This document shows positions 929 to 22,389 of a stretch of 64,000 nt of DNA, piece after piece. Made by a program: the position numbers and the translations under genes. Source of the DNA: Spinactinospora alkalitolerans (lineage in GTDB: Bacteria; Actinomycetota; Actinomycetes; Streptosporangiales; Streptosporangiaceae); NCBI RefSeq assembly GCF_013408795.1, contig NZ_JACCCC010000001.1, positions 5,580,001 through 5,644,000 on the forward strand. The letters run 5' to 3'. The notes beneath the pieces are model-generated. The model did no database searches. It had not been told where the DNA came from and was given only the letters and a program-made list of their open reading frames with translations. The first letter of the stretch is position 1. Every line of letters begins with the position of its first letter.

Positions 929-1228
929 CTAATGCTTCAGCAGGTTGGCGTCATCCACCGACGCCGACCTGCGGGTCCGGAAGATCTGCATGATGATCGC
1001 CAGGCCCACGACGACCTCCGCGGCGGCGACCACCATCACGAAGAAGGCGATGACCTGGCCCTCGATGCCGCCGTGCATCCGTGCGAAGGCGACGAACGCG
1101 AGGTTGCACGCGTTGAGCATCAGCTCCACGCACATGAAGACGATGATCGCGTTGCGCCGCACCAGGACGCCGACGGCGCCGATGCTGAACAGGATCGCCG
1201 CGAGGACGATGTAGTTCATCGGGTCCAT
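929..1228 (-). CDS. nuoK: NADH-quinone oxidoreductase subunit K
   Basis: Small three-helix membrane subunit of complex I (99 residues, the normal length) that takes part in proton translocation. The two family glutamates within helices are visible: E35 in [15 protein letters not shown] and E71 in [12 protein letters not shown]. The ATG at 1228 overlaps the end of nuoJ by 13 bp and has GGGAGG about 10 bp upstream. A second ATG four codons in would give [10 protein letters not shown], also a common start in the family. Subunits J and K overlap as in other actinobacterial nuo operons, which suggests coupled translation. Confidence 0.96.
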
Positions 1229-2142
1229 GAGCGGTCCGCCTCCCGTCCGCCGTTCTCACCGTCGTCGTCGCCGTTGTCGCCGGGAGCGCCGTCGTCACCG
1301 GCCTCGTGCCCCTCCTTGGACCACGCCGAGTCCGACGCGCCTCCGGGGACCGCGCCCGTGCCCAGTCGGATGTCCCTGGGGACCTGCGACTGGTCCCGCG
1401 GGTCGCGCGCCGCGAGCACCGGGTTGAGCGACAGCTCCGAGACCGACCCGTCGGGCAGCAGCGCCGGCATGTCGATCGCGTTGTGCCGCGCGTAGGTGCC
1501 GGGGCCGGGCAGCGGCGTGGGGTGGTCGCCGCGGATGCGCTCCTTGGACATCTCCTTCTGGGTGCGCTTGCGCCGGACGCGCTCGGTGTGCGCCATCACC
1601 AGCCCGCCGAGGACGGCGGTGATGAGCAGCGCGCCGGTGGCCTCGAAGGCGATGATGTAGCGGTAGATGATCTCGCCGGCGATCCACGGGATGCTGCCGC
1701 CCGCCGCGGCGACCCCCGCGTCCAGGCCGACCGGGTCGGCCAGCGTGATGCGGGTCATGCCGGTGGCCACGGCGCCGAGGAAGCAGATGGCGACGACGGC
1801 GGCGAGCAGCCGCTGCCCCTTGATCGTCTCGACGAGGGAGTCCGACGAGGTGACGCCCACGAGCATGAGGACGAACAGGAACAGCATCAGCACCGCGCCG
1901 GTGTAGACGACGATCTGGACGACCATCAGAAACGGCGCCTGGTTGATGCCGTAGAAGACCGCCAGGCCGATCATGACGACGGCCATCATCAGCGCGGAGT
2001 ACACGGCCTTGCGGCTGAACACCACGCCGAGCGCGGCGAGCACCACGATGGTGCCGATGATCCAGAAGGCCGCGCTCTCCCCACCGGAGATGGGGGCCGC
2101 CGCGGGCGCGGTCTGGAGTGGTTGGAGGGCGGTCGCGGTCAC
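1216..2142 (-). CDS. nuoJ: NADH-quinone oxidoreductase subunit J
   Basis: Membrane subunit of complex I, 308 residues if started at the GTG at 2142. That GTG overlaps the nuoI stop codon (GTGA) and reads [10 protein letters not shown]. Five hydrophobic helices fill about residues 25-200 (for example [17 protein letters not shown] and [20 protein letters not shown], with the Tyr-Thr-Gly-Ala motif of the family). The C-terminal hundred residues are a hydrophilic, charged tail ending near EADRSWTR. The tail makes the protein longer than enterobacterial NuoJ but is usual in actinobacteria. An in-frame extension up to 2388 exists but only runs antiparallel through nuoI and is not the start. Confidence 0.94.
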
Positions 2143-2690
2143 TGAGCGGCCTCGCTCTTCTGCTCCCCGGACCCGGAGGCGGGCGCGCCGTCGCGGCCCA
2201 TCCTGTAGTAGTCCTCCTCGGTCTCGCCGAGCCGCATCGGGTGCGGCGGCGCCTCCATGGCCTCCTGCAGCGGCGCGAGCAGCTGCTCCTTGGTCCAGAT
2301 GAGGCTCTCGCGGTTGTCGTCGGCGAGCTCGTACTCGTTGGTCATCGTCAGCGCGCGGGTCGGGCACGCCTCGACGCACAGCCCGCACAGGATGCAGCGC
2401 AGGTAGTTGATCTGGTAGACGCGGCCGTAGCGCTCACCCGGGGAGAAGCGCTCCTCCTCGGTGTTGTCGCCGCCCTCGACGTAGATGGCGTCGGCGGGGC
2501 AGGCCCAGGCGCACAGCTCGCACCCGATGCACTTCTCCAGGCCGTCGGGCCAGCGGTTGAGCTGGTGACGCCCGTGGAAGCGCGGCATCGTGGGCGGCTT
2601 CACCTCGGGATACTCGATCGTCGGCACCTTCTTGAACATGGTGTGGAAGGTGACGCCGAACCCTTTGACGGGGTTGAGCCAATCAAGCAC
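2139..2690 (-). CDS. nuoI: NADH-quinone oxidoreductase subunit I (2x[4Fe-4S] ferredoxin-like)
   Basis: Peripheral-arm subunit of complex I that carries clusters N6a and N6b and passes electrons to NuoB and quinone. Two canonical CxxCxxCxxxCP motifs are present: C54, C57, C60, C64 and C99, C102, C105, C109. The length of 183 residues fits the family, with an acidic C-terminal tail typical of actinobacteria. The ATG at 2690 overlaps the end of nuoH by 8 bp. The stop at 2139 overlaps the GTG start of nuoJ. Confidence 0.97.
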
Positions 2691-4059
2691 CGGTAACCTC
2701 CTCCCGCTTGCCGGTCGCGGCCGGTGGGGTCGTACGGGGTTCCTCCGCCGCCACGCTGCTGCCGTAGTGCGGAGCGTTCATGGGTGGCACGGGGAAACCG
2801 CCGTGCATCGGGTCCTCGCGCATCGCTTGGACCTCCTTGGCGTTCTCTTCGGCCTCCTCGGACCGCCTGCGCTCGGCCGCCCTGCCCCACGCGAGGAACG
2901 CCGCCAGGATCGCCACGAAGAACACCGCGACGACGGTGCCGGTGACGACCGGGGAGTAGCCCTCGTTGCGCAGCACCCGCAGGACCGCGACCGCGGTGAT
3001 CCAGACGAGCTGCACGGGGATGAGGATCTTCCAGCCGAGCTGCATGAGCTGGTCGTAGCGGACCCGGGGCAGCGATCCGCGCAACCAGATGAACATGAAC
3101 ATGACGGCCATGAACTTGAGCAGCCACCACAGCGCGGGCCACCAGGCCTCGTTGGCGCCGGCCCAGAACATGGTGATGGGCGGCGGCGCGTGGTAGCCGC
3201 CGAGGAAGAGCGTGACCGACAGCGCCGCGACGGTGACCATGTTGACGTACTCGGCGAGGAAGAACATCGTGAACTTCATCGAGGAGTACTCGGTCATGAA
3301 GCCGCCGACGAGTTCGCCCTCGCCCTCGGCGAGGTCGAAGGGCAGCCGGTTGGTCTCGCCCACCATCGTGATCAGGTAGATCACGAACGACGGGAACAGC
3401 ACGATCGCGAACCAGACGGGCTGCTGGGCCTCGACGATGCCCGAGGTGCTCAACGTCCCGGAGTAGATGAACACCGCCACGAACGACAGGCCCATCGCGA
3501 TCTCGTAGCTGATCACCTGCGCCGACGCGCGCAGCCCGCCGAGCAGCGGGTACGGGGAGCGCGACGACCACCCGGCGAGCACGATGCCGTAGACGCCGAT
3601 CGACGCGGTGGCCAGGACCAGCAGCACCGCGACCGGCAGGTCGGTCAACTGCAGCCGGGTCTGCACCCCGAACATCGACACCTCGGGTCCGATCGGGATC
3701 ACCGCGAACGCGATGAACGCCGGGATCGCCGAGACCATGGGCGCCGCGATGTAGACGACCTTGTCGACGCTGCGCGGGATGAGGTCTTCCTTCAGCGACA
3801 GCTTCACGCCGTCGGCCAGCGACTGCAGCAGGCCCCAGGGGCCGAACCGGTTGGGGCCGTGGCGCTGCTGCATCCGGCCCATGATCTTGCGATCCGCCAT
3901 GATCATCATCAGCACGCAGAGCATGAGGAAGACGAAGATCGCGACGGCCTTGATCAGGATGATCCACCACGGGTCGGAGCCGAACGCCTCCAGTCCCGGT
4001 TCGGCCGCCAGGGACACCCCGTCCCCGACGGTCAGGGGCGTCAGCGGAATGGACATCAC
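2683..4059 (-). CDS. nuoH: NADH-quinone oxidoreductase subunit H
   Basis: Membrane subunit at the junction of the two arms of complex I, forming part of the quinone chamber. The 458 residues include eight or more hydrophobic helices. Family landmarks are visible: [20 protein letters not shown] near residues 70-90, and the loop [19 protein letters not shown] near 255-275, whose acidic residues are conserved in the quinone site. A C-terminal hydrophilic tail of about 70 residues (after [17 protein letters not shown]) is typical of actinobacterial NuoH. The ATG at 4059 overlaps the nuoG stop (ATGA). Confidence 0.96.
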
Positions 4060-6748: not shown

Positions 6749-7974
6749 TACTCCTGCCGGAAGTACTTGATCGACGACGTCACCGGGCTGGTCGCGCCGT
6801 CGCCGAGGGCGCAGAAGGAGCGGCCGAGCAGGTTGTCGCAGATGTCGAGCAGCTTGTCGAGGTCGGCCTCGGTGCCCTGCCCGTTCTCCAGCCGGTCCAG
6901 GACCTGCACCATCCAGAAGTTGCCCTCGCGGCACGGCGTGCACTTGCCGCAGGACTCGTGGGCGTAGAACTGGATCCAGCGGCCCACGGCGCGCACCACG
7001 CAGGTGGTGTCGTCGAAGATCTGCAGCGCGCGGGTGCCCAGCATCGAGCCCGCGGCCCCGACCGACTCGAAGTCCAGCGGGGTGTCGAGGTGCTCGGCCG
7101 TGAAGATCGGCGTCGAGGAGCCGCCCGGCGTCCAGAACTTCAGTTCGTGGCCGGCCCGGACGCCCCCGGCCATGTCGAGCAGTTCGCGCAGCGTGACGCC
7201 GAGCGGGGCCTCGTACTGGCCGGGCCGGGTGACGTGCCCGGACAGGGAGAAGAAACCGAAGCCGGCGGACTTCTCGGTGCCCATGGCGGTGAACCACTCG
7301 GTTCCGTTGGCCACGATGCTCGGCACGCTGGCGATCGACTCGACGTTGTTCACCACGGTCGGCGAGGCGTAGAGGCCGGCCACCGCGGGAAACGGGGGCT
7401 TGAGCCGGGGCTGGCCCCGGTAGCCCTCCAGCGAGTCCAGCAGCGCGGTCTCCTCGCCGCAGATGTAGGCGCCGGCCCCGGCGTGCACCACGACGTCGAG
7501 GTCGAAGCCCGAGCCGAGGACGTCCTTGCCGAGCAGGCCGGCCTCGTAGGCCTCGGCGACGGCGTGCCGCACCCGCCGGATGACGTGCAGCACCTCGCCC
7601 CGCACGTAGATGAAGGCCAGGTTGCTCTTGATCGCGTAGGAGGCGATCGCGACGCCCTCGACCAACGAGTGCGGGTTGGCCAGCATCAGCGGGATGTCCT
7701 TGCAGGTCCCGGGCTCGGACTCGTCGGCGTTGACCACGAGGTAGCGCGGGTTGGGGTTGTCCTTGGGCAGGAAGCCCCACTTCATGCCGGTGGGGAAGCC
7801 CGCGCCGCCGCGGCCGCGCAGCCCCGAGGACTTCACCATCTCCACCAGCGCGTCCGGCTGCATGCCCAGCGCGGTGCGCAGCGCCCGGTAGCCGCCGTCC
7901 TCGCGGTAGGCGCTCAGGGTGAAGGAGTCGGGCCGGTCCCAGTTCTTGGACAGGACCGGGGTCAGGGTGGTCAC
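6676..7974 (-). CDS. nuoF: NADH-quinone oxidoreductase subunit F (FMN and NADH binding)
   Basis: NADH-oxidising flavoprotein subunit of complex I, 432 residues. The glycine-rich NADH/FMN motif [10 protein letters not shown] lies at 54-63. FMN-binding residues are in [12 protein letters not shown] near 92, and [14 protein letters not shown] lies near 180. The N3 [4Fe-4S] ligands are CGKCTPC (C342, C345, C348) and C388. The ATG at 7974 overlaps the nuoE stop. The C-terminal 23 codons are repeated exactly downstream (see the 74-bp repeat), so the true end is the first TGA at 6676-6678. Confidence 0.97.
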
Positions 7975-8678
7975 TGCTGGCCCTCCTCATCGGCCGCCTT
8001 GGGCGGCAGGTTCGCGGGATCGGGCGCGGCCCAGCCCCGTTCGCGGGCCAGCTTCAGGCCGGTCAGCGACGGTTCACCGGCCTGCACGCCCTCGGCGCCG
8101 CGGCCGTCGGGGAACCCGGCCAGCACGCGGGAGGCCTGCTTCCAGGTGCACAGCGACCCGGGGCCGCGGGTCGGCCGGACGTCGCTGCCCAGGCGCAGGT
8201 CGTCGACCAGGCGCTTGGCGGACTCGGGGGTCTGGTTGTCGAAGAACTCCCAGTTGACCATGACGACCGGCGCGAAGTCGCAGGCCGCGTTGCACTCGAT
8301 GTGCTCCAGCGAGACCCTGCCGTCCTCGGTGGCCTCGTCGTTGCCGACCCCCAGGTGCTCCTTGAGCTCGGCGAAGATCTCGTCGCCGCCCATCACCGCG
8401 CACAGCGTGTTCGTGCAGACGCCGACGTGGTAGTCGCCGACGGGCCGCCGCTTGTACATCGTGTAGAACGTCGCGACCGCGGTGACCTCGGCGGTGGTGA
8501 TGCCCAACTGCTCGGCGCAGAACGCGATGCCGCTGGAGCTGACGAAGCCCTCCTCCGCCTGCACCAGGTGCAGCAGGGGCAGCAGCGCCGAGCGCTGCCG
8601 CGGGTAGCGGGCGACGATCTCCTTGGCGTCGACCTCCAGTCGCGCGCGGACCTCGTCGGTGAAGGTGTTCGTGCTCAC
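7971..8678 (-). CDS. nuoE: NADH-quinone oxidoreductase subunit E
   Basis: Thioredoxin-like [2Fe-2S] (N1a) subunit of the NADH dehydrogenase module. Ligands are C88, C93, C129 and C133 in VGVCTNTLC and IECNAACDF. The conserved FYTMY lies at 71-75. At 235 residues it carries a C-terminal extension (from about 165, ending DEEGQQ) longer than the enterobacterial protein, as is common in actinobacteria. It overlaps nuoD and nuoF by 4 bp each. Confidence 0.96.
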
Positions 8679-9967
8679 CTGTCAACGCCTCCCATCACGG
8701 GGTCGATGCTGGCCACCGCCGCGACGACGTCGGCCACCGTGCCTCCCTCGCACATCGCGGCCACCGCCTGCAGGTGGGTGAACGAGGGGTCGCGGAAGTG
8801 CACCCGGTACGGGCGCGGCCCGCCGTCGCTGACCGCGAGGCAGCCCAGCTCGCCCTTCGCGCTCTCCACCGACGCGTAGGCCTGCCCCGGCGGGACCCGG
8901 AAGCCCTCGGTGACGAGCTTGAAGTGGTGGATGAGCGCCTCCATCGAGCCGCCCATGATGTGCGCGATGTGGTCGGGCGAGTTGCCCAGGCCGTCGGGGC
9001 CGAGGGCCAACTGCGCCGGCCAGCCGATCTTGGCGTCCTCGATCATCACCGGTCCGGGCCGCAGCCGGTCCAGGCACTGCTCGATGATCCGCAGGCTCTG
9101 CTCCATCTCGGCGACGCGCACCCGGTAGCGGGCGTAGACGTCGCAGCCGTCGGAGACCGGGACGTCGAACTCGTAGTTCTCGTAGCCGCAGTAGGGCTTG
9201 GCCTTGCGCAGGTCCCAGGCCAGGCCCGAGGCGCGCAGCAGCGGGCCGGTGGCCCCCAGCGCCATGCACCCGGCGAGGTCGAGGTGGGCGACGTCGCGGG
9301 TGCGCTTGAGGTACAGCGGGTTCTCGTCCAGGAGTTTGCGCATGACCGTGATGCGCTTGGGCATCTCGGTCAGCAGCTCCTTGATCTTGCCGACCGCGCC
9401 GGCCGGGAGGTCCTGGGCCACGCCGCCGGGGCGGACGTAGGCGTGGTTCATCCGCAGGCCGGTGACCATCTCGAAGATGTCGAGGACCATCTCCCGCTCG
9501 CGGAAGCCGTTCGTCATGATCGTGGTCGCGCCGAGCTCCATCCCGAACGTCGCCATCGCCACGAAGTGCGAGGACATCCGGTTGAGCTCCATCATGAGCA
9601 CGCGGATGACGTCGGCCCGCTCGGGGATCCGCTCGGTGATGCCCAGGAGCCTCTCGACGGCCAGGCAGTAGGCCGTCTCGTTGAACATCGGCATGAGGTA
9701 GTCCATGCGGGTCACGAACGTGGTGCCCTGCGTCCACGTCCGGTACTCCATGTTCTTCTCGATACCGGTGTGCAGGTAGCCGATGCCGACCCGGGCGTCG
9801 GTGACGGTCTCGCCGTCCAGGGTCAGGATGAGCCGCAGCACGCCGTGCGTGGACGGGTGCTGGGGACCCATGTTGACCACGAGGCGCTCGGCGCCGCCCT
9901 TCTGCGCGGCGGCGACGACCTCATCCCAGTCGCCGCCCGAAGCATCGACGTAGGTCTCGGTACCCAT
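8675..9967 (-). CDS. nuoD: NADH-quinone oxidoreductase subunit D
   Basis: 49-kDa-type subunit of complex I that forms the quinone site with NuoB. Landmarks are [15 protein letters not shown] near residue 30, [16 protein letters not shown] near 60, and [12 protein letters not shown] mid-protein. The C-terminal region VESAKGELG and DPSFTHLQ is also present. The ATG at 9967 (MGTETYVD) was preferred because AGGAGG sits 11-12 bp upstream. A GTG at 9979, four codons earlier, directly abuts that SD and is less likely. Length 430 residues. nuoC ends 103 bp upstream. Confidence 0.95.
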
Positions 9968-10070
9968 GGTCGCGCTCACCTCCTCACTCCCTTCGCCGTC
10001 AAGGCGTACACGCTCCGCGAGGGGGCATCGGCGACTCCGCCCGCTCGTCGGCTCGGCGCTCCGGTCGTCG

Positions 10071-10825
10071 TCACGCGTACGACCTCCGCTCGTCCGGCGG
10101 CGGAATCTTGGCGCCCCGGTACTCCACCGGAATCCCGCCCAATGGGTAGTCCTTGCGCTGCGGGTGGCCGTGCCAGTCGTCGGGCATCTGGATGCGGGTC
10201 AGTCCGGGGTGGCCGTCGAAGACGATTCCGAAGAAGTCGTAGGTCTCGCGCTCGTGCCAGTCGTTCGTGGGGTAGACCTCCACGATCGAGGGGACGTGCG
10301 GGTCGGCGTCGGGGCAGCCGACCTCCAGCCGGATCTCGCGGTTGTGCGTGATCGACCGCATCTCATAGACCGCGTGCAGTTCCCGGCCCGTGTCGCTGGG
10401 GTAGTGCACGCCGGTGACGCCCAGGCACAGCTCGAAGCGCAGGGCGGGGTCGTCGCGCAGCCGCCGCGCCACGTCGCGCAGGCTCTCCCTGCGGACGTGG
10501 AAGGTGAGCTCGCCGCGGTCCACCACGACCCGCTCGATCGCGCCGTCGAAGTCGCCGCCCGCCTCCTTGAGCGCCTGCCCCAGCGCGTCGGCGACCTCGT
10601 CGAAGTGCGCGGTGCGCGGGTCGTCGGGGTCGGTGAAGGGGCGCTCGGAGCCCAGGGGCGCCGAACCCCTGACGGCGAGCCCCCCGTATCCTGAGGTGTC
10701 GCCCGAGGTCCTGGCGCCGAACATGCCCTGGCGCACCACGGGGGAACTGAGACGTTCCTCACCCGCCCGCTCGGGCGGGTTTCCCTCTTCGCCTAGGTTA
10801 GGCTTACCTTCATGGCTGTTGGGGC

Positions 10826-10829
<4 letters not shown>
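10071..10829 (-). CDS. nuoC: NADH-quinone oxidoreductase subunit C
   Basis: 30-kDa-type peripheral subunit of complex I, 252 residues. The actinobacterial signature [17 protein letters not shown] lies at 35-51. The family motif [20 protein letters not shown] lies near 190-210, and RKDYPLGG near the C-terminus. The ATG at 10829 overlaps the nuoB stop (ATGA). The first 35 residues are a variable leader that contains a near-consensus iron-box sequence and a 9-bp GC hairpin in the DNA. Confidence 0.95.
10793..10811. promoter_or_regulatory. IdeR/DtxR-type iron box inside the nuoC 5' coding region
   Basis: The 19-bp sequence CTAGGTTAGGCTTACCTTC has the core AGGTTAGGCTTACCT (10795-10809). The core fits the AGGTWAGSCTWACCT palindrome of the actinobacterial iron regulator at all 15 positions. 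It lies 18-36 bp inside nuoC (codons 7-13). Next to it is a hairpin ACCCGCCCG-CT-CGGGCGGGT (10771-10790 region). Binding is inferred only from the match. The box could act on an internal promoter or as a roadblock, or it could be chance. Confidence 0.45.
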
Positions 10830-11383
<554 letters not shown>

Positions 11384-11503: not shown

Positions 11504-11863
11504 TCAGTCCCACTCCAGACCGCCGCGGCGCCATTCGTAGGCGTAGGCGATCGAGACGTTGACGAGGAAGAGCACCATCGCGACCAGGCCGAACATCCCG
11601 AGCGCGTCGAGATGGACCGCCCACGGCACGAGGAAGATGACCTCGATGTCGAAGACGATGAAGAGCATCGCCGTCAGGTAGTACTTGATCGTGAACCGGC
11701 CGCCGCCGACGGGCTGGGGCGTCGGCTCGATCCCGCACTCGTACGCCTGCAGCTTCGCGCGGTTGTAGCGCTTCGGCCCCGCGATCGACCCGACGACCAT
11801 CGAGACGACCACGAACGCCGCGCCGATCCCGCCGAGCACGAAGATGGGTGCGTACAGCTCCAT
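11504..11863 (-). CDS. nuoA: NADH-quinone oxidoreductase subunit A
   Basis: Small membrane subunit of complex I and first gene of the operon, 119 residues. Three hydrophobic helices are visible, with the conserved loop YECGIEPTPQP near residues 41-51 and KYYLTAMLFIVFDIEVIFLVPW near 59-80, which holds the conserved acidic pair. Start is the ATG at 11863. The 180-bp upstream region carries a Rex/CRP-like palindrome at 11947-11974 and is the probable operon promoter. Translation ends 120 bp before nuoB. Confidence 0.97.
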   Translation of the reverse strand: MELYAPIFVLGGIGAAFVVVSMVVGSIAGPKRYNRAKLQAYECGIEPTPQPVGGGRFTIKYYLTAMLFIVFDIEVIFLVPWAVHLDALGMFGLVAMVLFLVNVSIAYAYEWRRGGLEWD

Positions 11864-11946: not shown

Positions 11947-11974
11947 CCCACATGTGATCGTTTTCACGTGTGGG
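11947..11974. promoter_or_regulatory. Imperfect palindrome upstream of nuoA, Rex- or CRP-like
   Basis: Two 11-bp arms, CCCACATGTGA and TCACGTGTGGG, differ at one position and are separated by 6 bp. The central part reads TGTGA-N6-TCACG. That fits a CRP-type site (TGTGA-N6-TCACA), and the inner half also fits a Rex operator (TTGTGAA-N4-TTCACAA) at 11 of 14 fixed positions. It sits 84-111 bp upstream of nuoA. Rex control of respiratory genes is known in Streptomyces. Which factor binds here cannot be decided from sequence. Confidence 0.5.
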
Positions 11975-12044: not shown

Positions 12045-13361
12045 CTAGGCCGCCGGCGCCATCTTGGATAGGCCGTTGATCACCCGGTCCATCGCATCAC
12101 CGTGACTCGGCTCGGTAAGGTTGGCCAGCAGCTTCAACGTGAAGCGCATCAAGAGCGGCTGAGGCAGGCCGTACTTGGTCGCGTACTTCATGAAGTCGGG
12201 GTTGCCGATCATCTTCACGAAGTAGCGGCCCAGCGTGTAGTAGCCGCCGTAGGTGTCGCGCAGGATGCGCGGGTAGCCGAGCAGCGTGCGCTCGCGGGCC
12301 TGCCGGGTCGGGCGGGAGCGGGCCTGGACGATGACGTCGGCCGCGATGTGCCCGGCCTCCATGGCGTAGGCGATGCCCTCGCCGTTGAACGGGTTGACCA
12401 TGCCGCCGGCGTCGCCCACGAGCAGCAGCCCGCGGGAGTAGTGCGGTGTGCGGTTGAAGCCCATGGGCAGCGCCGCGCCCCGGATCCGGCCCCGCTGGTT
12501 GTCCTCGGTGAAGCCCCACTCCTCGGGCATGCTGGAGGTCCAGCGGCGCAGCAGGTTGCGGTAGTCGACGTCCTGGAAGGACGCGGTGGAGTTCAGGATG
12601 CCCAGGCCGACGTTGCTGGTGCCGTCGCCCACGCCGAACACCCAGCCGTAGCCGGGGAGCAGCACGTCCTTGCCGCCGCTGGAGTCCCACAGCTCCAGCC
12701 AGGACTCCAGGTAGTCGTCGTCGTGGCGGGGGCTGGTGAAGTACGTGCGCACCGCGACGCCCATCGGGCGGTCGTCGCGCTTGCGGATGCCCATGGCCAC
12801 CGACAGCCGCGAGGAGTTGCCGTCGGCCGCGACGACCAGCGGCGCCCGGTAGCTCACCCGTTCGCCGTCGGCGTTCTTCGCGCGCACGCCGACGATGCGG
12901 TTGCTGCGCGGGTCGATGACCGGCTCGGTGACGTTGGTGCGCTCCAGCAGCCTGGCCCCGGCCTCGACCGCCCGGCCGATCAGGATCTCGTCGAAGTCGT
13001 AGCGCGTGCGCACCAGCCCGAAGCCGGGGTACTCGGCGAGTTCGGGCCAGGGCAGTTCCAGCCGGACGCCGCCGCCGATGATCCGCAGCCCGTGGTTGCG
13101 GATCCAGCCCTTGTCCTCGAACGAGACGCCCATCGAGGTGAGCTGCTTGACCGCGCGGGGGGTGAGCCCGTCGCCGCAGACCTTCTCGCGCGGGAAGGCG
13201 GTCTTCTCCAGGACGAGCACGTCCAGCCCGGCCTGGGCCAGGTGGTACGCGGTGGTGGCCCCCGAGGGGCCGGCACCGACGACGATGACATCGGCCTCGT
13301 GCTGGGGGCACTCTCTGCTGGCGGACGGTGGTGTCGACACTGTCTCGCTTGTCTCGCTCAC
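12045..13361 (-). CDS. menJ: Geranylgeranyl-reductase-family flavoprotein, probable menaquinone saturase MenJ
   Basis: FAD-dependent reductase (438 residues) of the geranylgeranyl reductase family. The N-terminal FAD Rossmann motif VVGAGPSGAT is at 28-37. A second FAD contact, LLVGDAGGMVNPFNGEGIAY, lies near 315-335. CGDGLTPRAV near 60 is typical of this family. In mycobacteria the homologue saturates one isoprene unit of menaquinone; the neighbour menG supports that role here. The GTG at 13361 has AGGA 7 bp upstream. A perfect Rex operator lies about 94 bp upstream, so expression probably follows the NADH/NAD+ ratio. The nuo operon lies 180 bp downstream on the same strand. Confidence 0.85.
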   Translation of the reverse strand: MSETSETVSTPPSASRECPQHEADVIVVGAGPSGATTAYHLAQAGLDVLVLEKTAFPREKVCGDGLTPRAVKQLTSMGVSFEDKGWIRNHGLRIIGGGVRLELPWPELAEYPGFGLVRTRYDFDEILIGRAVEAGARLLERTNVTEPVIDPRSNRIVGVRAKNADGERVSYRAPLVVAADGNSSRLSVAMGIRKRDDRPMGVAVRTYFTSPRHDDDYLESWLELWDSSGGKDVLLPGYGWVFGVGDGTSNVGLGILNSTASFQDVDYRNLLRRWTSSMPEEWGFTEDNQRGRIRGAALPMGFNRTPHYSRGLLLVGDAGGMVNPFNGEGIAYAMEAGHIAADVIVQARSRPTRQARERTLLGYPRILRDTYGGYYTLGRYFVKMIGNPDFMKYATKYGLPQPLLMRFTLKLLANLTEPSHGDAMDRVINGLSKMAPAA

Positions 13362-13454: not shown

Positions 13455-13472
13455 TTGTGAAGAGCTTCACAA
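13455..13472. promoter_or_regulatory. Perfect Rex operator upstream of menJ
   Basis: TTGTGAAGAGCTTCACAA matches the Rex operator consensus TTGTGAA-N4-TTCACAA at every fixed base. It extends by one more complementary pair on each side (C...G). It lies 94-111 bp before the menJ GTG, in the only promoter-like stretch ahead of menJ-nuo. Rex is the NADH/NAD+ sensing repressor of actinobacterial respiratory genes. Confidence 0.8.
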
Positions 13473-13493
13473 GCTTTTGGGAAGAAGTCTAGA

Positions 13494-13685: not shown

Positions 13686-14396
13686 TCACCTGCGCCGCAC
13701 GCCCCGGTGCAGCGCCACGGCCCCCATGCTGAGGTTGCGCCAGGCGACCTCCGACCAGCCGGCCTCCTGCAGCCGCCCGGCCAGGGCGCGCTGGTCGGGC
13801 CAGTCGGCGATGGACTCGGAGAGGTAGGCGTAGGCGTCGGCGTTGGAGGTGAACCTACGCGCGACCGCCGGCAGCGCGCTCCTCAGGCAGGCGCTGTAGG
13901 CCTTGTCGAGCACCCCGACGGGGATGTGGCCGAACTCGCAGATGACCAGCCGACCGCCGACTCCGGTGACCCGCAGCAGCTCGCGCAGCGCCTGGTCGAC
14001 GTCGTTGACGTTGCGCAGCCCGAAGGAGATCGTCACGGCGTCGAAGGTCTCGTCGGCGAAGGGCAGCCGCAGCGCGTCGCCGGCCACGACCGTGACCCCG
14101 CGCCGGGAGGCTCCGCCGCGGCGCTCGGCCCCGACCTGCAGCATGCCCAGCGAGAAGTCGCAGGCGATGACCCGTGCGCCCTTGGCGGTGAAGGGCTCCG
14201 ACGAGGTGCCGGTGCCCGCCGCGAGGTCGAGCACGAGCTCGCCGCTGTAGGCTTCGACCGCCCTGACGACGGCGCGCCGCCAGATGCGGTCCTGGCCGAG
14301 CGAGAGCACGTCGTTGAGCAGGTCGTAGCGCCCCGCGATGCCGTCGAACATGGCGGCGACGTCCGTGGGCTTCTTATCGAGTTCGGCACGGGTCAT
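13686..14396 (-). CDS. menG: Demethylmenaquinone methyltransferase
   Basis: SAM-dependent C-methyltransferase for the last step of menaquinone biosynthesis, 236 residues. UbiE/MenG signatures: [20 protein letters not shown] at 17-36, the SAM motif [13 protein letters not shown] at 54-66, and [19 protein letters not shown] near 145-163. Start ATG at 14396 ([18 protein letters not shown]). It lies upstream of menJ on the same strand with a 324-bp gap that holds a repeat element and the menJ promoter, so the two genes probably have separate promoters. Confidence 0.93.
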
Positions 14397-18184: not shown

Positions 18185-19204
18185 CTAGGCGTAGGAGTGC
18201 AGGCCGCTGAAGAGGTAGTTCACGCCGAAGAAGTTGAACAGCAGGCAGGCGAAGCCGATGAGACCGATCCAGGTGGCCTTGTTGCCGCGCCAGCCGGCGG
18301 TGGCGCGGGCGTGCAGGTAGGCGGCGTAGACGACCCAGGTGATGAAGGACCAGACCTCCTTGGGGTCCCAGCCCCAGAACCGGCCCCACGCCTCGTCGGC
18401 CCAGATCGCGCCGGCGATGACGCCGAACGTCCACAGCGGGAACCCGAGCACGATGAAGCGGTGCGAGATGCGGTCCAGCAGTTCGGCGCTGGGCAGCTTG
18501 GCCGCGATGCCGCTGACCCTCTCGCCGATGGCCCGCTTGAACTCGGTGCGCCGGGCCACCAGGTAGGTGATGGCCGCCGACCCCGACACCATGAAGGCGC
18601 CGGTCGCGAGGATGGCGGCCGAGACGTGAATGGCGATCCAGTAGGAGTCCAGCGCCGGAACGACCGGACCGGCCTCGCTGTAGAGCCACTTCGCCGCGAC
18701 ACCCAGCAGCAGCAGCACCGGGACCAGGACGAACGTGCCGAGGTAGCGCGCCTTGTACCGGATCGCGGCGAACAGGAACGCGGCCACCGAGCACATGCAG
18801 ATGGCGACAACGAACTCGAACATGTTGCCCCACGGCCAGCGGTCGGCCGCGAGGCCGCGCGTGGCGATCTGCGCCACGTTGAGCAGGAAGCCCACGACGG
18901 TGACGCCCAGCGCCACCGAACCGAGGACGTGCCGCGAGGCCTTGGCCTCGGGCTCCTCGGTGCGCAGGTTGACCTTGATGTCGTCGGTGCCGCCGCCCGG
19001 CCCGGCGCCCGCACCGACGGTCGCACCGGCGCCCGCCATGACGAGCCCGCCGCCCTTCAGCGCCTCGCGCCGCCCGTAGGCCGCCTCGATCGCGAAGAGG
19101 AACATCGCGATCGCGTAGGCGAAGATCATGGCGATGATCAGGGTGTCGCTGACGGACGCCATCTGCTGGTCGATCGCCGTTTCCGCGGCGAGAACGTGCA
19201 CCAC
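18185..19204 (-). CDS. ccsB: Cytochrome c biogenesis protein CcsB (heme handling)
   Basis: System II cytochrome c synthase partner (ResC/CcsB type), 339 residues with about eight transmembrane helices. The tryptophan-rich heme motif WGRFWGWDPKEVWSFITW near residues 275-292 is diagnostic. Conserved histidines flank it (SHRFIVLGFPLW, YLHARATAGW). A soluble loop at 70-95 is Gly/Ala rich (AGAGATVGAGAGPGGG). Starts at the ATG at 19204, 3 bp after resB. Works with ResB to move heme and attach it to apocytochromes outside the membrane. Confidence 0.95.
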   Translation of the reverse strand: MVHVLAAETAIDQQMASVSDTLIIAMIFAYAIAMFLFAIEAAYGRREALKGGGLVMAGAGATVGAGAGPGGGTDDIKVNLRTEEPEAKASRHVLGSVALGVTVVGFLLNVAQIATRGLAADRWPWGNMFEFVVAICMCSVAAFLFAAIRYKARYLGTFVLVPVLLLLGVAAKWLYSEAGPVVPALDSYWIAIHVSAAILATGAFMVSGSAAITYLVARRTEFKRAIGERVSGIAAKLPSAELLDRISHRFIVLGFPLWTFGVIAGAIWADEAWGRFWGWDPKEVWSFITWVVYAAYLHARATAGWRGNKATWIGLIGFACLLFNFFGVNYLFSGLHSYA

Positions 19205-19207
19205 CGG

Positions 19208-20803
19208 CTACTCCTTCTCGGTGCCTGTGTCGGAAGCGGGCCGATCCCGCAGCCTGTCTCTCAGCCGGAGGCTGAGTTCGTGGAACTCCACGGCCGAGCC
19301 GGCGTTCTCGGTCTTGCCCAGTCCGCCCACCTCGACCACGGTACGTCCGTCCTCGCCGGTCCTGGCGCGCACCCAGGCGCGGCGCGGGCGCACGAACAGC
19401 GTGGCCAGCAGCCCCAGCACGGCCGCTGCGGCGGAGACCAGCGCGGGCAGTCGGCCGGGGTCGCTGTTGACCTGCATGGCGATGTAGTCGCTGTAGCCGG
19501 TGAACGTGATGATCGACCCGTCGGGCAGCTCCCAGCTCTCGCCGGGCGACAGCTCCGGCGACTCGCCGATCTCGGTCATCTGGTCGGTGTAGAGCTGGTA
19601 CACCGACTGCGAGTCGCCGCTGTCCAGGCCGAGGTCGCCCTTGAACCCGGTGAGCGTGACGACGGGGTCGCGCGGGGCCGGGAAGTCGGAGACGAGCTCC
19701 CCGTTCGGGGTCTCGGCCGCCGAGGGCAGGAAGACGCCGGTGAAGCCGAGCTGCTCGGGGGCGATGTCGGGCACCTTCACCACGCCGTCGGAGGTGAACA
19801 CGCCGTCCTCCCGGTTCAGGAAGGGCACGGGCTGGTCGAAGACGACGTTGCCGTCGGCGTCGGTGACCTCGAAGCCCGGCGCGTAGCCGTGGCCGAGCAG
19901 GTAGACCTGGGCGCCGTCCACCGACAGCGGGTGGTTGACCTCCAGCCGGTGGTCGCGCTCCGGCGCCTCGGGGGACTCCCGGTAGCTCAGCTCGGCCGTG
20001 AAGGACTCGGCCTGCCCCGCAAGATCGCCCTCCTCGATGAAGGCCGCCTCGAAGTCCTCCACCCGCAGCGAGAACGGCTGCAGGTCGCCGGCGTCGACGG
20101 CGGTGCCCGGATAGAAGGCGTCGTAGGACGGCAGGGTGTTGGCGAAGCCGTCGCCCTCGACCACCAGCATGTTGCCCCGGTAGCCGAGGAACGAGCCGAT
20201 CCCCAGCGAGACCAGCAGGGCGAGCAGCGCCAGGTGGAACACGACGTTTCCGGTCTCGCGCAGGTAGCCCTTTTCGGCGGCGACCGATTCGCCGTCGGCG
20301 TCGATCCGGTAGCCCTTGAGCACCGCCCTGGCCTGCTCCAGCGCGGTCCGCGGGCTCGCGTCGGTGCTGAAGCTCGCCGAGTAGGGCAGCCGGTCGAGGT
20401 TGCGCGGCGTCCTGGGCGGGCGGGCCCGCATGGCGCGGTAGTGCGCCGCGGCCCTGGGCAGCACGCACCCGGTCAGCGATACGAACAGCAGCAGGTAGAT
20501 CGCCGCGTACCAGGGCGAGGAGTAGACGTCGAACAGGGAGAACCGGTCCAGCCACGGCGCGAGGTCGGGGTGCTCCAGGTAGTAGTTCTGCACCTGCTCG
20601 GTGCTGACCGAGTGCTGCGGCAGGACCGACCCGGGAATGGCGCCGATGGCCAGCAGGAACAGCAGGATCAGCGCGGTGCGCATCGACGTCAGGATGCGCC
20701 AGGCCCAGCGCGCCCAGCCGAGCGCGGAGAGCGCGGGGGCCCCGGAGCCGGTGGATCCGCCGTTCGGGGACCCCTTCGATGAGGTCGTTTCGAGTGAGGT
20801 CAC
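19208..20803 (-). CDS. resB: Cytochrome c biogenesis protein ResB
   Basis: 531-residue ResB-family membrane protein, partner of CcsB in system II cytochrome c synthesis. N-terminal helices include MRTALILLFLLAIGAIPGSVLPQ near 42-64, followed by a third helix and a large extracytoplasmic domain (about 130-445, with a Trp/Gly-rich HLLxLGxG part). A last helix lies near 455 (ALVSAAAAVLGLLATLFV). The GTG at 20803 overlaps the A/T-rich junction with ccdA (2-bp gap). Order resA, ccdA, resB, ccsB with tight spacing makes one operon. Confidence 0.93.
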   Translation of the reverse strand: MTSLETTSSKGSPNGGSTGSGAPALSALGWARWAWRILTSMRTALILLFLLAIGAIPGSVLPQHSVSTEQVQNYYLEHPDLAPWLDRFSLFDVYSSPWYAAIYLLLFVSLTGCVLPRAAAHYRAMRARPPRTPRNLDRLPYSASFSTDASPRTALEQARAVLKGYRIDADGESVAAEKGYLRETGNVVFHLALLALLVSLGIGSFLGYRGNMLVVEGDGFANTLPSYDAFYPGTAVDAGDLQPFSLRVEDFEAAFIEEGDLAGQAESFTAELSYRESPEAPERDHRLEVNHPLSVDGAQVYLLGHGYAPGFEVTDADGNVVFDQPVPFLNREDGVFTSDGVVKVPDIAPEQLGFTGVFLPSAAETPNGELVSDFPAPRDPVVTLTGFKGDLGLDSGDSQSVYQLYTDQMTEIGESPELSPGESWELPDGSIITFTGYSDYIAMQVNSDPGRLPALVSAAAAVLGLLATLFVRPRRAWVRARTGEDGRTVVEVGGLGKTENAGSAVEFHELSLRLRDRLRDRPASDTGTEKE

Positions 20804-20805
20804 TG

Positions 20806-21627
20806 CTAAATCACCGTCGTGAAGTTGGCGGTCCAGCCCTGCATGATGGCCGTGATGCCGCTCCAGACACCGGTGACCAGGAGCAGGCCGACGAGCACGA
20901 GCATCGCGCCGCCGATCAGCATGACGGCGCGGTGGTGGCGCCTAATCCAGCCGAACGCGCCCAGGGCGCGCCGGTAGGCCAGTGCCGCCGCGACGAACGG
21001 CAGGCCCAGGCCGATGCAGTAGAAGAGCGACAGCAGCGCGCCGCGGCCGGCGCTGCCCTCGGTGAAGGCCAGCGACTGCACGGCGGCCAGCGTCGGGCCG
21101 ATGCACGGCGTCCAGCCGAGCCCGAACAGCACCCCCAGCAGCGGGGCGCCGGCCAGTCCGGCCCCGGGGAGCCGGTGCAGGCGGAACTCGCGGTTGAGCC
21201 CGGGGATCACCCCCATGAACGCCAGGCCCAGCAGGACGGTGACCGCGCCGAGGACGCGGGTGATGACGTCGGCGTGGTCGAGGAGCAGGCCGCCGACGCC
21301 GCCGACGAACACGCCCACGGACACGAACACCGCGGTGAACCCGGCGATGAACAGCAGGCTGCCGGCGAGCATGGTCCAGCGGCGCGCCGCCAGGGCCTCG
21401 TCGACCGACACCGCGGCCCGGGTGCCGCCACCGCCGTCACCACCGCCCTCGGCCGCGGCCGCGCGGCGGTGGGCGGCGATCTCGGCGCCGCTCATCCCCG
21501 TCACGTAGGAGAGGTAGCCCGGCACCAGCGGCAGGACGCAGGGCGACAGGAACGACACCAGCCCGGCCGCCATCGCGAGCGGGACGGCGAGGAGGAGCGA
21601 GCCCGTGAAGACGGTTTCGGCGATCAT
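20806..21627 (-). CDS. ccdA: Cytochrome c biogenesis thiol transporter CcdA
   Basis: 273-residue DsbD/CcdA-type membrane protein that carries reducing equivalents from cytoplasmic thioredoxin to ResA. Six helices and the two redox cysteines of the family are visible: [18 protein letters not shown] near 24-42 and [14 protein letters not shown] near 170. The ATG at 21627 overlaps the resA stop (ATGA). A Gly-rich loop ([15 protein letters not shown]) sits near residue 60. Confidence 0.93.
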
Positions 21628-22250
21628 GCCGGACCGGTGTCCCCGCCGCCCTCGTCGAGAACCGGTTCGACGAGTTCGGTCAGGTCGCTGTAGTCGGTCG
21701 CGCCGATGACGCGGGCGGCGATGCGGCCCTCGCGGTCGATCACCAGCGTGCTCGGGATGGCCTGGGGCGGCACGGTGTCGCGGAACGCCTGGGAGACCTT
21801 GCCGGGCTGGTCGTACAGGCTCGGGTAGCTGATGTCCTGGTTGCGCTCGAACGCCTCGGCCGCGGTCCGGTTGTCCTTGATGTTGATGCCGAGGAACTCC
21901 AGGCCGGCGTCCTGGTGCTCGCCGTAGACCTCCTCGAGGACGGGGGTCTCCGCGCGGCAGGGCGCACACCAGCTCGCCCAGAAGTTGAGGACGACGACGC
22001 TGCCCTCGTAGTCGGACAGGCTCACCTGCTCACCGTCGAGCGTCTCCCCGCTGACCTCGGGCGCGGCCTGGCGCTCGTCGGGCGCGAACGCGGTGCTGGC
22101 CCCGCTGCCCTCGACGTAGCGGTTGTCGGAGCCGTCGGTCTGGGCGTCGACTCCCCCGGCGCAACCGGCGAGGACCGCCGCGGCCGCCAGGGCGGCGGCG
22201 CCGCGTCGCAGTACCGAGCGCATGCGGGTGCCGGATTCGGTGAAGGGCAT
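21624..22250 (-). CDS. resA: ResA/TlpA-type thioredoxin-like lipoprotein
   Basis: 208-residue exported thiol-disulfide protein. An N-terminal signal ends in the lipobox VLAGC with C30, so it is probably lipid-anchored outside the membrane. The thioredoxin fold has the active site [14 protein letters not shown] near residues 90-103. The cis-Pro segment [14 protein letters not shown] lies near 165. It reduces apocytochrome c cysteines using electrons from CcdA, its overlapping neighbour. The ATG at 22250 was chosen because GAGG lies 9 bp upstream. A later ATG (22223) lacks an SD. Confidence 0.9.
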
Positions 22251-22389
22251 CGTGAAGAACCTCAAAAGAGGAGGTGAAGCAGGCAATGTGTCGATAACGA
22301 CACAGTGTAGTAGATGCCCTGCGGGCCGGGATTCAGGCCCCGTGAAAGCCGTACCGCACCCTGCGGGAGGGCCCGGCACGACGAATTTC

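Follow-up and report, generated by a model that had tools for sequence, protein, structure and literature searches.

The window, as we call the whole 64,000-nucleotide stretch of Spinactinospora alkalitolerans DNA analysed here, carries on its minus strand a menJ-type gene that lies between menG and a run of complex I genes beginning with nuoA (Table 1). The product of the menJ-type gene scored 269 bits against TIGR02032 (cut-off 159), and it is the only full-length geranylgeranyl-reductase/MenJ-type protein encoded in the genome. Like mycobacterial MenJ (Rv0561c type), it belongs to the FAD-dependent geranylgeranyl-reductase family, for which saturation of menaquinone isoprene units is the expected activity; unlike that protein, it scored 251 bits against the NCBIfam model MkRedMenJ (NF045655), whose curated cut-off is 700, and its gene stands first before nuo and has a predicted Rex operator. 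Since the score falls below this cut-off, menJ is a name given by homology and by the neighbours, menG upstream and nuoA downstream, and the presumed role of the protein in this organism is to reduce the side chain of menaquinone. MenJ of mycobacteria saturates one isoprene unit and is dispensable for laboratory growth (PMC6305584). The upstream neighbour menG is located 324 bp before menJ and is outside the downstream side of the operator; the adjacency of menJ and nuoA, on the same strand and with a short gap, is conserved. Near nuo, at 18185–22379 of the window, a cytochrome c maturation order was also observed, consisting of a thioredoxin-like lipoprotein, a CcdA-looking membrane protein, ResB, and CcsB.

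Table 1. Features of the menG–menJ–nuo region, in coordinates of the window
Feature	Position	Strand	Remarks
menG (demethylmenaquinone methyltransferase)	13686–14396	−	NF001241, 354 bits (cut-off 327)
Putative −10 element TAGACT	13486–13491	−	13 nt from the operator; from the alignment of relatives
Rex operator (ROP), predicted, TTGTGAAGAGCTTCACAA	13455–13472	−	exact TTGTGAAN4TTCACAA; minus-strand reading TTGTGAAGCTCTTCACAA
menJ-type gene, FAD-dependent geranylgeranyl-reductase family	12045–13361	−	GTG start; predicted first cistron
Second, weak Rex-like site ACGTGAAAACGATCACAT	11952–11969	−	4 mismatches; between menJ and nuoA
nuoA (complex I)	11504–11863	−	NF005922, 209 bits (cut-off 155); 181 bp after menJ
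nuoB	10826–11383	−	NF005012, 249 bits (cut-off 116)
nuoC	10071–10829	−	4-bp overlap with nuoB; reading frame, name from position and sequence
nuoD	8675–9979	−	reading frame, name from position and sequence
nuoE	7971–8678	−	reading frame, name from position and sequence

The 18-base palindrome ahead of the menJ-type gene ends 94 bp from its GTG start. The original prediction had described it as agreeing with the Rex consensus at every fixed base, which was borne out: 14 of the 14 fixed bases are matched, the position is exact, and no second exact TTGTGAAN4TTCACAA was detected in the 6,684,050-base genome, for which the reversed-pattern control gave no match at all. When up to two mismatches were allowed, it was the sole match within the window, where shuffles give an expectation of 0.01. 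The palindrome had further been described as one pair longer than the consensus. Such an extension does exist, though the pair count was slightly low, as the dyad comprises 8 of the 9 pairs in the 18-mer and then continues for two further pairs (GC...GC), and the central A/G pair of the 18-mer is the only non-symmetric one. It can almost certainly be regarded as a genuine binding site of Rex, a repressor that senses NADH.

A generic sigma-70 scan detected no promoter at menJ, and no good −35 element was visible in the window genome. The hexamer TAGACT, which 56 of 60 relatives have 12–15 nt ahead of the operator, was read as a −10 box, which would place the transcription start near position 13479 and the operator at approximately +7 to +24. 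This conserved spacing suggests that Rex would sit just downstream of the transcription start. A similar position is seen at cydA1 of Streptomyces avermitilis, where Rex protects the DNA from −3 to +25, providing a precedent for repression from the position of the menJ operator. A scan for terminator-like structures between menJ and nuoA found none.

The operator was then traced through the order to which the window genome belongs, sampled with 121 genomes of 35 genera, 120 of which encode a menJ protein. It was present upstream of menJ in all of the 117 members tested (34 genera), 114 of them having an exact site and 3 a site with one mismatch; 39 of these genomes were assessed by comparing the coordinates of two genome searches for overlap, 60 from the 400 bp preceding menJ, and 18 from individual loci (L113–L142). 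Among the 60 tabulated genomes, all but one of the 14 fixed bases are invariant, the exception being position 2, which is kept in 57, while the N4 spacer occurs in 16 versions and the conservation of the flanks is mostly 0.4–0.7. The conservation of the operator thus exceeds that of its flanks.

Outside the order, 69 of 88 genomes of the class, coming from 28 families, have a site upstream of menJ that deviates from the consensus at no more than two bases, and none of 3000 shuffles reached two mismatches. The form is here mostly TCGTGAAN4TTCAC(A/G)A. The 19 site-less genomes comprise 4 of family f20, 4 with no detectable rex, 6 in which nuoA is distant, and 5 that are unexplained. Family f20 was taken as Streptomycetaceae by comparison with named loci, and only matches with 5–8 mismatches were obtained at menJ in the 65 named loci of Streptomyces and Kitasatospora. 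All four of the best rex-less genomes (G126, G141, G295, and G361) are without the site, and nuoA was undetected within 1.5 kb of menJ in the six nuoA-distant ones. Five genomes (G160, G175, G199, G142, and G197) have rex and a menJ-adjacent nuoA but no site at menJ. Conversely, the site is kept in six genomes in which rex was undetected (G184, G186, G192, G232, G326, and G400), which are fragmented or incomplete drafts from families that contain rex.

The window genome has one rex gene, recognised as the single match to PF06971 (73 bits), and its product scored 386 bits against the Rex equivalog NF003992 (cut-off 226). Beyond the menJ site, a genome-wide pattern search, the source of all weaker Rex-like sites described here, gave ten more sites at one or two mismatches. 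The rex-hemA genes are preceded by their own one-mismatch operator TTGTGCATGCATTCACAA; a Rex-like pair 104 bp apart (genome positions 702506 and 702610; L004/L007) lies ahead of an Ndh-2-like dehydrogenase gene; a one-mismatch site (genome position 954527) precedes a WhiB-like (wblE-like) gene by 43 nt (L005, 1195–1518); and another Rex-like site lies in an apparent atp region, where the gene has no Pfam match. Verified targets of Rex in S. avermitilis include rex-hemA, ndh2, wblE (with the same 43-nt distance), and atpI (PMC5355995), so that the window genome resembles Streptomyces in having Rex-like sites before rex-hemA, Ndh-2-like, and wblE-like genes and near the atp region. In the sampled relatives, the other exact site is mostly found before an Ndh-2-like gene, often with a second site in tandem; the tandem arrangement recurs in L299, L300, L302, L303, L305, and L306, and an exact site at a WhiB-like locus is also present in L301. 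Two TGTGA-N6-TCACA palindromes, 43 bp apart, were observed near TetR and ABC transporter genes (L006, 1458–1518; genome positions 3580993 and 3581035), and these could be sites of Rex, of Crp, or of the TetR protein itself. For the three cydA-like genes (L143–L145; genome positions 1081000, 521000, and 1368500), the upstream DNA fetched contained no Rex-like site within four mismatches, although cydA is a classic target of Rex. The menJ operator resembles that of S. avermitilis cydA1 in its inferred location downstream of the start, but the gene it precedes is a different one and cydA of the window genome lacks such a site.

We considered two ways in which the palindrome may be something other than a Rex operator. 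That it arose by chance and has no function is barely conceivable: nothing speaks for it, and it was rejected on the shuffles, on the genome-wide uniqueness of the sequence, and on a conservation in every order member tested that coexists with a variable spacer and variable flanks. Binding by a regulator of the CRP/FNR type in place of Rex has more in its favour. The consensus of such regulators is TGTGA-N6-TCACA, in which CRP places no constraint on the inner six bases. The core of the menJ site, TGTGAAGAGCTTCACA, is an exact fit to this form, and at least two of the seven such palindromes in the genome are at places unlike Rex targets. However, the inner bases are not free in the 60 tabulated genomes, among which AA...TT is invariant, and genomes beyond the order mostly carry C at the second base (TCGTGAA...), as in the hppA Rex site TCGTGAATCAATTCACGA that was verified by EMSA (PMC5355995). 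The preference of the other exact sites for Ndh-2-like genes also argues against CRP. We therefore rejected a CRP-type binder, on the invariance of the inner bases and on the co-occurrence with rex, and regard it as highly improbable.

If Rex is the ligand, the operator may still be a dedicated switch of menJ for quinone saturation, with nuo under its own promoter and a weak Rex site. The window's family offers some support for this, as a second Rex-like site lies before nuoA within the menJ–nuoA gap (102–236 bp in this family), and of the two sites the one near menJ is by far the stronger. The weak site of the ACGTGAAAACGATCACAT type has 2–3 mismatches in 12 of 13 relatives and 4 in the other one, and 3 mismatches were reached in only 2 of 2600 shuffled menJ–nuoA gaps; nuo may thus have a Rex-controlled promoter of its own in this family. 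In most families, in contrast, the menJ-proximal site is the sole Rex site of the menJ–nuo region, since nuoA lacks a separate Rex-like site (4–7 mismatches) in the genomes read outside Nocardiopsaceae and Streptomyces. Every site-bearing member of the class with readable downstream DNA has nuoA on the same strand, 34–419 bp after menJ. Where menJ stands apart from nuoA, the site is missing, both in Streptomycetaceae, where the gap amounts to 1.6–4.5 kb, and in G122, G377, G391, G324, G349, and G240. The reverse case is given by G080, a member of the order with no menJ match, in which menG is followed by the promoter and an exact operator and then by nuoA and nuoB. Its element, GGTCTAGACT-N-TTGTGAAGTCGTTCACAA, is the same promoter/operator as that at menJ (L304, G080:C3:540400-544400, 994–3171), and in G080 menJ has been deleted naturally from the predicted operon. 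The separated menJ genes without a site and the retention of the site before nuoA in G080 indicate that the operator tracks nuoA, not menJ. A dedicated menJ switch is disfavoured by these genomes, and we consider it unlikely.

The palindrome is thus very likely the Rex operator of a promoter that would read menJ and then nuoA–N as one transcription unit. The best reading is that menJ is the first cistron of a Rex-controlled complex I operon and not the target of a switch of its own. The original prediction had proposed that menaquinone saturation may respond to NADH/NAD+ jointly with complex I; the Rex operator stands, given a near-invariant site and the presence of rex, and the target was redefined as the complex I operon. 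Sequence comparison strongly supports a Rex operator through which menJ and complex I would be controlled jointly. Across most families of the class, rex, the promoter-like element, the operator, and the menJ–nuoA order co-occur. Counted against this reading are the 181-bp gap with its weak Rex-like site, the five site-less genomes that have rex and an adjacent nuoA, the six drafts without detected rex that keep the site, and the MenJ score below the curated cut-off. At a low NADH/NAD+ ratio, the menJ site just downstream of the start would be occupied by a Rex dimer, and RNA polymerase would be blocked; when respiration slows, NADH would rise and Rex would leave, and the co-transcription of menJ and nuoA expected from their arrangement would allow MenJ, the presumed reductase of the menaquinone side chain, to be made together with complex I. 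In the window's family, the weaker Rex-like site before nuoA may provide nuo with an additional level of control. For S. avermitilis, it was reported that Rex binds its consensus, is released by NADH, and represses nuo (PMC5355995).

Rex control of nuo is established for the nuoA1–N1 operon of S. avermitilis, with the consensus TTGTGAANNNNTTCACAA that is identical to the one given in the original prediction (PMC5355995). This consensus, the regulator, and the downstream nuo operon are common to the window genome and the Rex regulon of S. avermitilis and S. coelicolor. The Streptomyces nuoA site TTGTGACCTGCTTCACAT, which is visible in many Streptomyces loci, was footprinted in S. avermitilis at −42 to −16, between the −35 and −10 elements (PMC5355995). 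Unlike this arrangement, in which the operator is directly before nuoA, the operator of the window lies before menJ, has the full consensus, and is probably located downstream of the start. A reductase gene directly beside nuoA is also known from Actinomyces oris (ANA_1625), where insertions in ANA_1625, nuoA, nuoJ, and nuoG fall into one class of coaggregation mutants, although neither Rex nor an operator is described for that locus (PMC5478893). The shared mutant class is consistent with one menJ–nuo unit. menJ is missing from the table of Rex targets of S. avermitilis (PMC5355995), and the paper on Rex of Saccharopolyspora spinosa contains no operator or nuo data. Rex control of menJ had been thought undescribed, and the literature searched indeed gave no report tying Rex to menJ or to menaquinone saturation; a 2012 comparative study of Rex regulons was outside this search, leaving priority uncertain. 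Rex control of complex I is hence known, and the inclusion of menJ appears to be new.

The putative Rex–nuo operator is placed so as to take in menJ too, an arrangement that is widespread in the class and absent in Streptomyces. In most of the class Actinomycetia, menaquinone side-chain saturation may be hard-wired to NADH/NAD+ via a Rex-controlled menJ–nuo operon, the quinone changing with complex I, and Streptomyces may be a derived exception that split both, which would explain why menJ was overlooked as a Rex target; we see this broader proposal as evenly balanced between right and wrong. A switch shared by menJ and complex I would also mean that maps of the Rex regulon based on Streptomyces lack a target found widely elsewhere in the class. 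The reason for the partial saturation of menaquinone in actinobacteria is poorly understood, and an NADH-sensing switch common to menJ and complex I leads to the hypothesis that the saturated quinone would be made when the electron input through complex I rises.
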